From an uncultured Verrucomicrobiales bacterium (GTDB taxonomy: Bacteria > Verrucomicrobiota > Verrucomicrobiia > Verrucomicrobiales > Akkermansiaceae): a stretch of DNA of 64,000 nt. Of this stretch, positions 1,262-39,323 are shown one piece after another. Position numbers and translations under genes: made by a program. Position 1 is the first letter of the stretch, and each line of letters opens with the position of its first letter. The notes beneath the pieces were generated by a model that ran no database searches, was not told the DNA's origin, and worked only from the letters and a program-made list of their open reading frames with translations. The DNA lies in contig CALDZJ010000042.1 in assembly GCA_937944055.1 (NCBI GenBank), positions 1 to 64,000 of the forward strand, in the 5' to 3' direction.

Positions 1262-1699
1262 ATGACTCACCCTCTTTCTGTGACCCTCGCTGATGCTGAC
1301 GCGACTCTTGTGCTGGGACGGGAGTTGGGGCGTGCGGCTCAGGCTGGGCAGGTGATTGCCTTGGTGGGTGAGCTGGGGGCGGGGAAAACGACTCTGACTC
1401 GGGGATTGGTGCGGGGTTTGGGTTATGAAGGGGAGGTGACAAGTCCTACTTTTTCTTTGGTTCAGGAATACTTAGGAGGGAGTCTGGAGGTGTTTCATTT
1501 TGATTTTTACCGGGTGGAGGATGAGCATGAGCTGCTTGATTTGGGTTGGGATGATTATTTGGAGCGTGGGGGTTTGGTGATTGTGGAGTGGCCGTCTCTC
1601 TATCCGGATCTGCTTCCAAGAAACACGCGCTGGCTTAAGTTGAGTCATGAAGGGGAGGGGAGGCTTGTGGTTGATCTCGAGAGTCCTTTTAAGGGCTAG
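1262..1699 (+). CDS. tsaE: tRNA threonylcarbamoyladenosine synthesis ATPase TsaE
   Basis: ATPase that works with TsaB and TsaD to place threonylcarbamoyl on A37 of ANN-decoding tRNAs. The 145-residue product has Walker A GELGAGKTT at residues 36-44, followed by SPTFSLVQEY and a FDFYRVEDEHELLDLGWDDYL block typical of the family. Its partner tsaB is at 28435-29112 on the opposite strand; tsaD is not in this window. The gene stands alone between the divergent rplU promoter region and the dioxygenase gene. Length and motifs are normal. Confidence 0.95.
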   Translation: MTHPLSVTLADADATLVLGRELGRAAQAGQVIALVGELGAGKTTLTRGLVRGLGYEGEVTSPTFSLVQEYLGGSLEVFHFDFYRVEDEHELLDLGWDDYLERGGLVIVEWPSLYPDLLPRNTRWLKLSHEGEGRLVVDLESPFKG

Positions 1700-1767
1700 G
1701 GGTGAGGGAGGGGGGGCTTAGCGCCTTTCGGCTGGTCTCAGTTGGGGGATTTGCGTATTTTTTCAGA

Positions 1768-2550
1768 ATGAAGGTTTCTTCCTGTGTGCTGTGCCATCGC
1801 CGCGATTTCCTGCGGCGGGCGGTGTTGGGGGCGGCGGGATTCTTTACTACGCCCGGAGCCTTTGCTGAAGCCCTCACGGCAACCCCCGCGATGACCGAGG
1901 GGCCATTTTATCCAGATCAGTTGCCGTTGGATACGGATAATGATCTGATTCGGATCAATGATAGGATCACTCCGGCAATGGGAGCGATCACTCATCTTCA
2001 TGGTGCGGTGACAGACTTGAAAGGGGATCCCGTTTCTAATGCCCGGGTTGAGATTTGGCAGGTGGATGATCGTGGTGCCTATATTCACTCGAGGGATGGT
2101 GGCTTAAAAGGGCCCAAGCGGGATGAACATTTTCAGGGCTTTGGTCGTTTTTTGACGGGGCGGGATGGGCGTTATTATTTTCGTACGATAAAGCCCGTAC
2201 CTTATTCTGGTCGCACTCCGCATATTCATGTGGCGGTGTATCGTGCAGGGAAGCGTGCCTTGACTACTCAGTGTTTCATCGAGGGTGATTTGAGGAATGG
2301 GAGAGATGTCCTGGTTCGGCGGCTGGGGGATTCTGCGAAGCAGCTTATGGTTCAGTTCCGCCCTTTGCCGGATTCTCAAGCGGGAGAACTGAGTGCGGAG
2401 TTTAACATCGTGCTAGGGTTCACTCCGGATGATGGGCATGGTGATATTGGGAGCGATGCTGAGGGCCATCAAGAAGTGCTGCCTACTTTGGAGAGAGATC
2501 GCCTGACTTATGAGAAGGCGAAAAGGGCGTTAGAGGAGGATTCTGAGTAG
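1768..2550 (+). CDS. Tat-exported intradiol ring-cleavage dioxygenase-like protein
   Basis: Belongs to the non-haem Fe(III) intradiol dioxygenase fold (protocatechuate 3,4-dioxygenase/catechol 1,2-dioxygenase type). The ATG at 1768 is chosen because it is followed within 11 residues by a twin-arginine signal, RRDFLRRAVLGAAG; the frame is open further upstream. The mature part has EGPFYP, WQVDDRGAY, YYFRTIKPVPY and RTPHIHVAVY, which supply the two Tyr and two His iron ligands of the family. Export of a member of this family is known in several phyla, but the substrate is usually unknown. No aromatic-degradation genes lie nearby, so the role may not be classical beta-ketoadipate metabolism. Confidence 0.85.
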   Translation: MKVSSCVLCHRRDFLRRAVLGAAGFFTTPGAFAEALTATPAMTEGPFYPDQLPLDTDNDLIRINDRITPAMGAITHLHGAVTDLKGDPVSNARVEIWQVDDRGAYIHSRDGGLKGPKRDEHFQGFGRFLTGRDGRYYFRTIKPVPYSGRTPHIHVAVYRAGKRALTTQCFIEGDLRNGRDVLVRRLGDSAKQLMVQFRPLPDSQAGELSAEFNIVLGFTPDDGHGDIGSDAEGHQEVLPTLERDRLTYEKAKRALEEDSE

Positions 2551-2561
2551 GTTTTTTACTA

Positions 2562-2592
2562 AAGGGAGAAAGTTTAAGCTTTGTTTCCCTTA
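2562..2592. terminator. Hairpin between convergent genes
   Basis: AAGGGAGAAAG pairs, with a small bulge, with CTTTGTTTCCCTT across a short loop. The right arm overlaps the trpS stop codon. There is no good T-run on either strand, so it may end both transcripts only weakly. Confidence 0.35.
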
Positions 2593-3555
2593 AACTAGGC
2601 CGACTGCTCTCCGCACTCGGTCTAGGACTTTGGTCGCTTCTTCGCGGGCCTTTTCGGCTCCGGCTTGTAGCACGGCGTCGACTTCAGCGGGCTTTGCGAC
2701 GAGTTCCTCTCGCCGTGCTCTCATGGGCGCGAAATGATCCCAGTAGGCTTCGGCGAGGCGTTTTTTAAAGTCTCCGTATCCGCAGCCGCCGTTTTCATAA
2801 TCGGCGATCATTTGTTGGTATTCTGTGTCTGAGGCAAAGAGCTCATAGAGGGCTAGAATGATGGAATTTTCAGTGGGCTTCGGGTCCTCTACTCCGGCGG
2901 AATCTGTCTTGATGCGCATGATGAGCTTTTTTGTCGGCTTCTCGTCACCGAAGATCGGGAGCGTATTATTGTAGCTTTTGCTCATTTTCTCGCCATCGAG
3001 TCCGGGGACCTTGGCGACTCCTTCGCGGATTCTTGCCTTTGGGAGAATGAGCGTGCCTTCGCCGTATTGATCGTTGATTTTTCCGACCAAATCTCGAGTC
3101 ACCTCAAGGTGTTGTTTTTGGTCCTCGCCGACGGGGACGACGTTAGAATCATAGAGGAGAATATCGGCAGCCATGAGTGCGGGATAGGCGAAGAGGGCGT
3201 GATTTGCTGAGAAGCCTTTTGCGATTTTATCCTTATAAGAGTGGCAGCGCTCGAGCAGGCCCATGGGGCAGAGGGTGGAGAGAATCCATGCCAGTTCATT
3301 CACTTCTGGGACGGCGCTTTGTTTAAAAAAAACCCCTCGTGATGGGTCGAAGCCGCAGGCAAGGAAGTCGATGGCGACATTACGAACGTTCTCGCGCAGT
3401 TCGGCGGGATCGTGAGTGGTCGTCATCGCGTGATAATCTGCGATGAAGTAATATCCATCGCCTTCACCTTGTGCATCAATGGCGGGTTTGATCGCGCCAA
3501 AGTAATTTCCCACATGGAGTTTGCCGCTGGGTTGCAGGCCGGTCAAAATTCTCAT
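2590..3555 (-). CDS. trpS: Tryptophanyl-tRNA synthetase
   Basis: Class I aminoacyl-tRNA synthetase that charges tRNA-Trp. The 321-residue protein opens MRILTGLQPSGKLHVGNYFGA, giving the HIGH-type motif HVGN at residues 14-17, and carries GEKMSKS around residue 198. Length is typical of the bacterial enzyme. It is transcribed away from lepB; if lepB starts at the GTG proposed here, about 110 bases are left for the two divergent promoters. No T-box or leader peptide is evident upstream. Confidence 0.97.
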   Translation of the reverse strand: MRILTGLQPSGKLHVGNYFGAIKPAIDAQGEGDGYYFIADYHAMTTTHDPAELRENVRNVAIDFLACGFDPSRGVFFKQSAVPEVNELAWILSTLCPMGLLERCHSYKDKIAKGFSANHALFAYPALMAADILLYDSNVVPVGEDQKQHLEVTRDLVGKINDQYGEGTLILPKARIREGVAKVPGLDGEKMSKSYNNTLPIFGDEKPTKKLIMRIKTDSAGVEDPKPTENSIILALYELFASDTEYQQMIADYENGGCGYGDFKKRLAEAYWDHFAPMRARREELVAKPAEVDAVLQAGAEKAREEATKVLDRVRRAVGLV

Positions 3556-36838: not shown

Positions 36839-36987
36839 GAGGTTGTGGGGCTTGGGTTGAGAAGTGGCCAGGACGGCCACGCCACTTTTGGGGGCATGAT
36901 CGTTTTGGGGAATGAGGAGGAGGATTTTTGGGCACAGATTTTAACGGATGGAGAGAGGATTTCACAGATTTGGGAGGTTGAGGGGGA

Positions 36988-37013
36988 CCGAAAGCTGGAG
37001 CTTTCGGCTACGG
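36988..37013 (-). repeat. REP-like hairpin, copy 1, GTAG-headed
   Basis: On the minus strand it reads CCCGTAGCCGAAAGCT, a 2-base centre, then AGCTTTCGG: a 9-bp perfect stem preceded by GTAG. GGGGGAC precedes it on the plus strand. It begins at the rtcB stop codon. Confidence 0.75.
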
Positions 37014-37014
37014 G

Positions 37015-38532
37015 CTATGGGTTGATGTTGCCGAGGTCTCGTTTGATGCGACGGCGTTCTTTGCGGTGGGCGCGTTGGCGGATTTGTTTTGGGGTGAGGG
37101 GTTCTTCTTCGTCTTCGCTGCGGCGTTTTTTGCCGCCGGCCATGATGCAGCCTAGGGGTTTGATTTCGGCGACGATGGTGGCGAGGTCGTGTTCTTTGAT
37201 CTGGGCTTTGATGGTTTCGGGATCTTTATAGGCGATGGGGGTTTCGCTGAGGTCGGGTTTGCCGTTGAACCAGCGAACGTCGATGTCCTTGGTGTGATGC
37301 TCGATGAGGTGGCGGCGGTGATCGGCTCCGCGATGTTGTTTCATGAGGGCGGTGCGTGAGAGGTTTCGTCCAGCACCGTGAGGGGCGAAGGAGTGGAATT
37401 TTTGATTATCGTTTCCGAGGACGAGGAGGATGGGCTGGGCCATATTGAGGGGGATGAGGCCGAGGAGGGGGCGGCCTTGGTCATCTTTCCAAGCGGGGGT
37501 GGCTCCTTTGCCGTGGAGGTAGGTGCTGCCGCGCTTCCAGATGAAGTTGTGCTCGTTGCCAATGGTTTCGATGGCTTCGGCGCCGATGTTTTTGAGGAAG
37601 CGGGTGTGGATGGCTTGGTGGTTGGCGCGGGTCCAGCGGGCGACGTATTGAAGGGCTTCCCAGTAGGCTTGGCCATCGGGTGAGGTGGCATCGAGCCAGG
37701 CCGCTTCGGGTGGGATGCGGTCTGCGAGCTTGGCGGTGTGTTTGATGGCGGCATCGAGCCCGCGTTTGTAGAGGTGGGAGCCGAGGCTGCGCGAGCCGTG
37801 ATGGGTGATGAGGGCGCGGAGGGTGCCGCGGAAGTTTTTGAAATGAGGATGGCCGGCGGAGTGGAGTTGGGTGGCGAGCTCGTCGGTGATTTCGATTTCG
37901 CCGAGGAAGGCGAAGTGGTTTCCGTCTCCTTGGTCGGCGAGGTGGATGGTGGCGCGGTCTTTGAGCGATTTTAGGAATTTGTTTTCCCAGATGTCTTCGT
38001 GGAGGACGGGGTGATCTACGAGGTCATCGTGATGTCGCCCGCCGGGGCCGAAGCGGGTGGAGGCGGTGAGGGCATCGAGTTCGGACGCGACGGAAGTACG
38101 AGGTTTATAAAAGGTAGCGAACATGGAGCAGCAGATATCAGCGGAGTGCGCGGCTGGAATGATGGCATTGTCCACCGCGATGACCCCGCCGACGGGGATA
38201 TCGGCAGGGGCGGGTCCGGTGGGACAGGCATCGGGCATGATGCTGCCGCTCTGGATGATGGGGGTGCGGAGGAGTTCGGCCATTTTGGCACGGACTTTGG
38301 TGAGGTTGGCTTTTTCTTCCTTGGTCTCGGCCGAAATGGCTTCGGTGCAGGGGGCGGGCTTCTCACGCATGATGAATTGGGGTGGGGGTGGTCCGAATTC
38401 ACGTTTGAGGAGCTTGAGGATGTATTTTCGATCGACGATGCCACGGGCGTTGAGATCGGCGATTGCGGCGAGCATGTCATCGATTTGCGGTCCGGGGCGG
38501 TAGCCGGTTTTGAGGAGGTCTTTGGCGTTCAT
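37015..38532 (-). CDS. rtcB: RNA-splicing/repair ligase RtcB
   Basis: GTP- and Mn-dependent ligase that joins RNA 2',3'-cyclic phosphate or 3'-phosphate to 5'-OH ends, used in tRNA splicing or repair. The 505-residue product has the family motifs AVDNAIIPAAHSADICCSM, GDGNHF, HHGSRSLG, GNEHNF and FAPHGAGRNLSR; the His of the last is the guanylylated residue. The C-terminal about 35 residues are strongly basic (KKRRSEDEEE...HRKERRRIKRD), longer than in E. coli. Its start overlaps the HNH gene stop by four bases (ATGA), so it is translationally coupled to that nuclease. No RtcA cyclase, archease or RtcR regulator is adjacent. A REP hairpin abuts its 3' end. Confidence 0.94.
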   Translation of the reverse strand: MNAKDLLKTGYRPGPQIDDMLAAIADLNARGIVDRKYILKLLKREFGPPPPQFIMREKPAPCTEAISAETKEEKANLTKVRAKMAELLRTPIIQSGSIMPDACPTGPAPADIPVGGVIAVDNAIIPAAHSADICCSMFATFYKPRTSVASELDALTASTRFGPGGRHHDDLVDHPVLHEDIWENKFLKSLKDRATIHLADQGDGNHFAFLGEIEITDELATQLHSAGHPHFKNFRGTLRALITHHGSRSLGSHLYKRGLDAAIKHTAKLADRIPPEAAWLDATSPDGQAYWEALQYVARWTRANHQAIHTRFLKNIGAEAIETIGNEHNFIWKRGSTYLHGKGATPAWKDDQGRPLLGLIPLNMAQPILLVLGNDNQKFHSFAPHGAGRNLSRTALMKQHRGADHRRHLIEHHTKDIDVRWFNGKPDLSETPIAYKDPETIKAQIKEHDLATIVAEIKPLGCIMAGGKKRRSEDEEEPLTPKQIRQRAHRKERRRIKRDLGNINP

Positions 38533-39113
38533 GAGGCAGGGAGGAAGTGCAGCCAGTCGTTGATCTGGTGCTTGTTTTTGATGAAGTGAGTGAGGGGCAT
38601 TTCGGGTGGCCTGAGGGGCTGCCGAAGAAGCTTGAGTCCAGCTTCGCGCGGGGTGCGGTCGGCTTTCCGGTTGTTGACTTTTTTGTAGGAGAGGACGCAG
38701 TTTTCCCAGGTGGTGGGACCACCGCGTGAGCTTGGGAAGACGTGGTCGATGTTGGCTTCAGAGAGGCTGAGTTTTTTGCCGGTGTATTGGCAGCGGCCGC
38801 CATCACGCTCGAAGAGGCCTGGGAGGCCGAACTTGAGGCGCTTGCGCGGGACGCGATCGAACTTACTGAGGATGACGACGGTAGGGATGCGGATCCGGCC
38901 CTGAGTGGTGCCGATGGAGGCATCTTCTTCTCGGATGGGAAGGCGCTGCCAATCGGGCCAAGAGGTGGGGACCATCCAGTGGGGGCCTTGGATGTCGAGG
39001 CCGGTGGCTTGGTCATTGATCATGGGTCCGAGGACCTCGGCCGGAGTGGTGGGGGTGAGGGCGAGCCAGTTACGGTTGAGGACAAGGACGGTGGTTTTGT
39101 GGAGATGAGACAT
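38529..39113 (-). CDS. HNH endonuclease coupled to RtcB
   Basis: 194 residues. The N-terminal half has VLVLNRNWLALTPTT, the opening of the COG1403-type HNH family, and VPRKRLKFGLPGLFERDG. The HNH core follows: CQYTG at 108-112, catalytic Asp123-His124 in NIDHVFPSSRGG, TTWEN with Asn138, and NNRKADRTPREAGLKLL. In most relatives the core is held by CxxC pairs; here CQYCG has become CQYTG and the second CxxC is replaced by SYKKV, so the zinc site is lost while the catalytic residues remain. The gene lies 50 bases downstream of tRNA-Gln and overlaps rtcB by four bases. A nuclease-ligase pair acting on nucleic acid ends is inferred, not shown. Confidence 0.88.
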   Translation of the reverse strand: MSHLHKTTVLVLNRNWLALTPTTPAEVLGPMINDQATGLDIQGPHWMVPTSWPDWQRLPIREEDASIGTTQGRIRIPTVVILSKFDRVPRKRLKFGLPGLFERDGGRCQYTGKKLSLSEANIDHVFPSSRGGPTTWENCVLSYKKVNNRKADRTPREAGLKLLRQPLRPPEMPLTHFIKNKHQINDWLHFLPAS

Positions 39114-39117
39114 TTTT

Positions 39118-39154
39118 AATGGACGAATGAACGATTGCAGAATGGACGATTGGC
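39118..39154. repeat. Three direct repeats upstream of the HNH gene
   Basis: AATGGACG (39118), AATGAACGATTGCAG (39126) and AATGGACGATTGGC (39141) lie between tRNA-Gln and the HNH start. They could be an operator for the HNH-rtcB pair. Confidence 0.4.
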
Positions 39155-39163
39155 TTGGTTGAG

Positions 39164-39238
39164 TGGTGCCCGGGGAAGGAGTCGAACCTTCGTATTCGGA
39201 TTCAAAGTCCGATGTAATGACCGTTACACGACCCGGGT
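39164..39238 (-). tRNA. tRNA-Gln (anticodon TTG), CCA encoded
   Basis: Full cloverleaf on the minus strand: anticodon stem TCGGA/TCCGA with loop CTTTGAA, so anticodon TTG for CAA; T arm GAAGG-TTCGACT-CCTTC; acceptor CCCGGG/CCCGGG plus a mismatched A1/C72 first pair, discriminator A and encoded CCA. A weak or open 1-72 pair is normal for glutamine tRNA. Follows tRNA-His by 8 bases. Confidence 0.9.
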
Positions 39239-39246
39239 TTAGAGTT

Positions 39247-39323
39247 TGGGAGGACCAGTGGGGTTCGAACCCACTCCGCGGCGATCACAATGCCGAATGC
39301 TGACCAGTTACACTATGGCCCCC
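39247..39323 (-). tRNA. tRNA-His (anticodon GTG), CCA encoded
   Basis: Minus strand. Anticodon loop TTGTGAT gives GTG. The extra 5' G (G-1) pairs with C73, the histidine identity pair; acceptor GGGGCCA/TGGTCCT, T arm GTGGG-TTCGAAC-CCCAC, encoded CCA. The last anticodon-stem pair is A31/C39, a mismatch. First of a two-tRNA unit. Confidence 0.92.

Follow-up and report, generated by a model that had tools for sequence, protein, structure and literature searches.

A minus-strand unit in the window (the whole 64,000-nucleotide stretch analyzed here) joins two tRNA genes, an HNH nuclease gene and rtcB, and we favor, with some caution, the view that it is a pared-down version of a conserved cassette for tRNA replacement and RNA repair, serving under translational stress or tRNA-targeting attack. 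The arrangement is not a local accident. The window represents the shrunken end of a cassette that recurs in relatives, and keeps two array tRNAs.

All four genes lie on the minus strand. The unit starts with a second copy of tRNA-His (GTG; 39247 to 39322) and, after 8 bases, a second copy of tRNA-Gln (TTG; 39164 to 39238), both predicted by ARAGORN and Rfam. Fifty bases further on is the gene for a 194-residue HNH nuclease (38529 to 39113; Pfam HNH_4, 6e-9, and HNH, 4e-7), followed by rtcB (37015 to 38532; Pfam RtcB, 4e-38), encoding a 505-residue protein of the 3'-phosphate RNA ligase family. Bases 38529 to 38532 read ATGA on the minus strand, where the HNH stop overlaps the rtcB start. These coordinates agree with the initial annotation, which had described a minus-strand unit with this 50-base gap and ATGA overlap. 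A promoter scan was uninformative, with no promoter-like site between tRNA-Gln and the HNH gene or upstream of tRNA-His. Judging from the layout, the tRNAs, HNH and rtcB may be co-expressed as one unit.

Both window tRNAs are redundant, as the assembly has another tRNA-His(GTG) and another tRNA-Gln(TTG), which share 62% and 67% identity, respectively, with the window genes. The window tRNA-His has the lowest Rfam score among the 35 tRNAs of the assembly. Though diverged, both tRNAs are foldable and have an encoded CCA, and tRNA-His keeps G-1 and C73, the usual identity pair of tRNA-His. Most near relatives whose HNH is 65 to 93% identical to that of the window retain tRNA-His and/or tRNA-Gln, and tRNA-His is kept beside the HNH gene or rtcB in several genera. 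Among tRNA array units as defined previously (PMC5966550), the window tRNAs share the property of being redundant to and diverged from housekeeping tRNAs; with two tRNAs, the window is smaller than the 20 or more clustered tRNA genes of such units, a size reached by relatives L261, L265, and L157. Two candidate features of the window tRNAs were rejected. Anticodon-loop changes do not provide a reason for them, as the His loop is identical to the housekeeping loop and the Gln loop differs only at positions 32 and 38. Encoded CCA does not mark spare tRNAs, as 31 of 34 housekeeping tRNAs also encode it.

The HNH protein has the core motifs CQYTG, IDH, and WENCVLSYKKVNNRK and is missing both CxxC pairs, while keeping D123, H124, N138, and N147, residues that do not vary among 24 relatives. 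Thus, a core that lacks the zinc pairs and keeps the Asp-His and Asn residues, as first annotated, is seen in the sequence. The Pfam HNH_4 profile matches at 36.1 bits (cut-off 22), with the D-H-N residues present, and the nearest profiles are Cas9d (best, 2e-17), Cas9, and IscB, all matching through the HNH core only. An AlphaFold model (pLDDT 91) searched against the PDB with Foldseek gave Cas9 HNH domains as best matches, over ~65 to 70 residues. Because the nearest profile and PDB matches are Cas9-type cores, the missing CxxC pairs are a trait common to this branch and not the special departure initially supposed: the nearest characterized cores, of Cas9/IscB type, share CxYTG or CxYSG without zinc pairs. 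Zinc loss as a sign of new activity was ruled out on the same grounds. The likeness to the Cas9/IscB HNH domain (Pfam HNH_4, PF13395) consists of this zinc-less CxYTG core and the D-H-N catalytic residues, whereas the window HNH is a stand-alone protein of 194 residues that scores far below the Cas9d, Cas9, and IscB family cut-offs, has no RuvC, and has no guide RNA that we could see; it is therefore not a Cas9 or IscB protein. Its N-terminal ~95 residues, mostly beta strands, gave no match in a structure search of the PDB or in profile searches. The genome encodes a second HNH protein, on contig C15, with CQYC and CIPC motifs and 34% identity to the window HNH.

RtcB is well supported by its profile (PF01139; 132 bits, cut-off 27) and keeps the metal- and guanylate-binding motifs DICCS, GDGNHF, HHGSRSLG, HGKGAT, and HGAGRNLSR; the window motifs DICC, GNH, H-GSR, H-KGAT, and HGAGR align to P. 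horikoshii RtcB. This is the sole rtcB in the assembly, which is 92% complete and in which no archease, RtcA, or TROVE/Ro60 was found. The initial annotation had noted that archease and RtcA were not near rtcB and had set the unit apart from the rtcBA arrangement. The absence of archease and RtcA extends from the neighborhood to the entire assembly, and the unit is neither an rtcBA nor an rsr-rtcBA operon.

The same parts recur together elsewhere. Counting tRNA genes within 5 kb of the HNH gene, tRNAs were present in 29 of 59 distinct HNH loci, RtcB in 27, and both in 20. Every one of the 201 tRNA genes (up to 31 per locus) and of the 27 RtcB genes was on the HNH strand; 186 of the tRNAs were upstream of the HNH gene, and many HNH relatives sit at the downstream end of tRNA arrays. 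The tRNAs are thus part of the unit, as proposed initially. A phylum-wide search of 388 genomes added 20 new HNH loci, with RtcB in 13 and tRNAs in 11, a count that leaves out L258, which has a tmRNA and not a tRNA. In 58 relatives counted by hand, RtcB was present in 18 of 24 genomes with a window-type HNH and in 7 of 34 without (Fisher p = 5e-5, kinship not corrected). Loci of a zinc-type paralogue served as a control: of 22 in related genomes, none had RtcB and 1 had a tRNA (for RtcB, Fisher p = 3e-6, kinship not corrected). A scan of named genomes found a Phycisphaeraceae contig (L157) with 35 tRNAs, a CQYTG-type HNH, and RtcB. An Rfam search of 12 HNH loci in which ARAGORN gave no or few tRNAs found no hidden ones. 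Zinc-type HNH genes belonging to the same family were also seen with long arrays, in Phycisphaeraceae (L172; 38 tRNAs, with a slipin beside the array), another planctomycete (L182; 12 tRNAs), and Solibacteraceae (L209; 22 tRNAs).

The co-occurrence of CQYTG-type HNH and rtcB that the initial annotation had suggested surveying therefore holds in 27 of 59 loci, always on the same strand and with at least four RtcB types, across families and classes of two phyla, Verrucomicrobiota and Planctomycetota; the adjacency is not limited to one strain. It is scarcely credible that the tRNA pair, HNH, and rtcB are chance neighbors in one lineage. Such a reading can draw on the loci with neither tRNA nor rtcB near the HNH gene, about a third of the total (23 of 59), but it is contradicted by the survey, both in the same-strand recurrence over families, classes, and two phyla and in the paralogue control.

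Fuller versions of the cassette include further genes on the HNH strand, which we defined by clustering and Pfam: TROVE/Ro60 in 4 loci, Band_7/slipin in 8, RlaP in 4 (with weak, partial matches in 2), and a family that we call X in 10. The most complete, L265 in the one-contig genome G154, reads 25 tRNAs-HNH-X-RtcB-slipin-RlaP, and its array tRNAs score 38 to 60 bits, whereas housekeeping tRNAs reach 74. In a fuller verrucomicrobial member, L263, Ro60 lies alongside RtcB. In the searched loci, 13 proteins belong to family X; they have a PYQRGWxRFF motif, and their genes lie beside HNH, RtcB, or slipin (for example, L147 10094 to 11824, L069 5442 to 6155, and L265 7410 to 8072). X belongs to no Pfam family, and its AlphaFold model (pLDDT 80) had no PDB match with E < 1.

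The RtcB proteins adjoining HNH belong to at least four distant types (the window type, the L069 type, the L157 type, and L171/L156), so the link originated or was re-established several times. Such recurrent pairing is an argument for a common function. The rtcB gene is mostly downstream of the HNH gene, and is upstream in L068, L069, L149, and L247. Many RtcBs of the window type lie alone (L091 to L099), which weighs against the cassette reading, as do the 23 HNH loci with neither tRNA nor rtcB nearby and the small number and ordinary elbows of the window tRNAs. Two loci have RtcB remnants, the C-terminal 72 residues upstream of HNH in L149 (9555 to 9770) and the N-terminal 95 residues downstream of HNH in L153 (2202 to 2486), which suggests rtcB loss from once complete cassettes, or assembly errors. 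In L071 of G024 (1508 to 3111), tRNA-His directly precedes rtcB, the HNH gene is missing, and X follows; this is a natural HNH-less version from the same genus.

The pairing of a nuclease with a ligase had led to the initial proposal of a cut-and-seal or trim-and-seal module, in which HNH would cut RNA (a tRNA or an array precursor) and RtcB would rejoin or trim it. The recurrence behind this proposal stands, with 27 of 59 loci paired, and the closely packed ATGA junction that the window shares with near relatives, the same-strand orientation in 27 of 27 cases, and the persistence of HNH beside RtcB in loci where no tRNA was found (L063, L155, L251, and L259) all fit it. The direct cycle, however, is chemically unlikely. 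Cleavage by metal-dependent HNH nucleases yields 3'-OH and 5'-phosphate ends, whereas RtcB joins a 3'-phosphate or 2',3'-cyclic phosphate to a 5'-OH, and the ends that it naturally seals come from metal-independent RNases, a class including many anticodon nucleases and colicins. HNH is therefore an unlikely source of RtcB substrate. In addition, the HNH core groups with DNA-cutting Cas9/IscB HNH domains, HNH is linked as often to tRNA arrays as to rtcB, and RtcB is not nearby in 32 of the 59 HNH loci. We consider a cut-and-seal module quite improbable; the most likely target of the HNH enzyme is DNA, rather than RNA to be sealed by RtcB.

Related HNH genes also occur on viruses and plasmids. 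Large viral contigs with HNH relatives had tRNAs within ~8 kb in 47 of 80 cases and RtcB in 3 of 80; HNH is mostly without RtcB there and is thus bound more closely to tRNA arrays than to repair. IMG/VR contigs L296 to L315 (up to 177 kb) encode HNH proteins 42 to 59% identical to the window HNH, several near tRNA genes, and named phages have more distant relatives. On plasmids, related HNH genes adjoin arrays of 21 tRNAs (Nostoc TCL26-01), 29 tRNAs (Mycolicibacterium pCBMA213_1), and ~30 tRNAs plus a tmRNA (Pseudarthrobacter pACHL01). In the last of these, from P. chlorophenolicus (L142 56 to 7743), the tmRNA gene is inside the array and the HNH gene at its end.

An alternative reading is a homing-type HNH that spreads tRNA arrays among genomes, phages, and plasmids, with RtcB as a later and unrelated passenger. 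In mycobacterial tRNA arrays, no gene is more common than HNH, which was interpreted there as homing (PMC5966550); the viral HNHs are nested among the cellular ones, and the viral, Nostoc, Mycolicibacterium, and Pseudarthrobacter HNHs described above lie near tRNAs. Against homing, HNH has a constant strand and a constant place, closing the array on its downstream side, and remains paired with RtcB in loci that lack tRNAs; at least four RtcB types are also hard to square with a passenger. We regard this explanation as rather unlikely, and prefer the tRNA-replacement and repair cassette.

Nearly all array tRNAs of the fuller cassettes differ from housekeeping tRNAs at the elbow. The G18-U55 pair is near-universal at the tRNA elbow and among the most conserved tRNA contacts, and housekeeping tRNAs of two genomes had U55 in 64 of 64 cases. 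Among 134 verrucomicrobial array tRNAs in which residue 18 could be placed by a simple rule (47 in which it could not were left out), 106 had A18-G55, 27 had G18-U55, and 1 had G18-C55. Neither A18-U55 nor G18-G55 occurred among these 134, and a looser placement rule gave one G18-G55 case. Residues 18 and 55 were concordant in 133 of 134, compared to at most 104 in 2000 shuffles. G55 does not reflect gene decay, because 131 of 133 G55 tRNAs have a perfect 5-pair T stem. We observed A18-G55 in L265 (2000 to 5600), L261, L263, L264, L074, L147, and other verrucomicrobial arrays, and also in viral contigs L307, L344, and L347. Most of the planctomycete, actinobacterial, and cyanobacterial arrays examined have the ordinary elbow pair, as do the window tRNAs. 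Nothing on A18-G55 was found in the literature searched. Such tRNAs would be unable to carry pseudouridine 55 and might thereby escape elbow-reading enzymes or toxins. We tentatively entertain, at somewhat less than even weight, the idea that the cassette is a second tRNA set resistant to tRNA destroyers, travelling with RtcB, Ro60, and the Cas9-like HNH as a single counter-attack system. If confirmed in a functional tRNA, the swap would break with this highly conserved contact.

The cassette probably protects cells whose tRNAs are under destruction. In the mechanism that we propose, the cassette would be switched on when housekeeping tRNAs are cut by anticodon nucleases, toxins, or phage-defense enzymes, or when translation is blocked. 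Spare tRNAs, diverged enough to evade the damaging agent, would restore translation, and RtcB would rejoin broken tRNAs carrying cyclic-phosphate ends. HNH could cut attacker DNA, or maintain or spread the tRNA array. Induction of the cassette, function of the spare tRNAs, and the role of HNH are all predicted here from gene content. Why bacteria and phages keep spare tRNA sets is debated, with codon supply and defense against tRNA cutters as the two explanations. A physical cassette of spare tRNAs, RNA ligase, Ro60, and nuclease makes the damage-replacement idea testable in culturable Verrucomicrobiota. It also places the large uncharacterized HNH family, and RtcB found away from rtcBA, in a context.

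Parts of this cassette resemble known systems; HNH genes in tRNA arrays and RtcB with Ro60 are both already known. The tRNA arrays of mycobacteria, and of mycobacterial plasmids and phages, have redundant, diverged tRNAs and the same broad HNH family embedded or adjacent, and the papers describing them do not mention RtcB (PMC5966550, PMC12803027, PMC9569102). The Mycolicibacterium array HNH (L144) is of a different, more distant branch than the window HNH, and mycobacterial-type array units have at least 20 tRNAs compared to 2 in the window. A proposed role of phage tRNAs is evasion of anticodon nucleases (PMC10264068), and in jumbo phages tRNAs are combined with RtcB, Rnl ligases, and TROVE (PMC7824862). 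In Salmonella, tRNA halves turn on the rsr-yrlBA-rtcBA operon (PMC7790460), which is similar in having RtcB with Ro60, as in L263, and a link to damaged tRNAs; unlike it, the window genome is without RtcA, Ro60, and archease, and has HNH and real tRNA genes. In the literature searched, with subscription papers outside its scope, RtcB was described with a tRNA array or gene cluster only in PMC10272220 and one other Anabaena paper, and the linked tRNA-array/HNH/RtcB cassette appears to be undescribed there. Anabaena sp. PCC 7120 has the same parts and offers a separate functional parallel: there, TrcR represses a silent 26-tRNA array, the HNH gene all8564, rtcB (all3526), and the slipin gene alr0740; repression is relieved by translation-blocking, ribosome-targeting antibiotics, and deletion of the array lowers resistance to ribosome-targeting antibiotics (PMC10272220). 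In Anabaena these parts are co-regulated by translational stress but scattered over a plasmid and the chromosome, whereas in the window they are adjacent and on one strand. Finding the parts of the TrcR regulon side by side thus fits a tRNA replacement-and-repair cassette.
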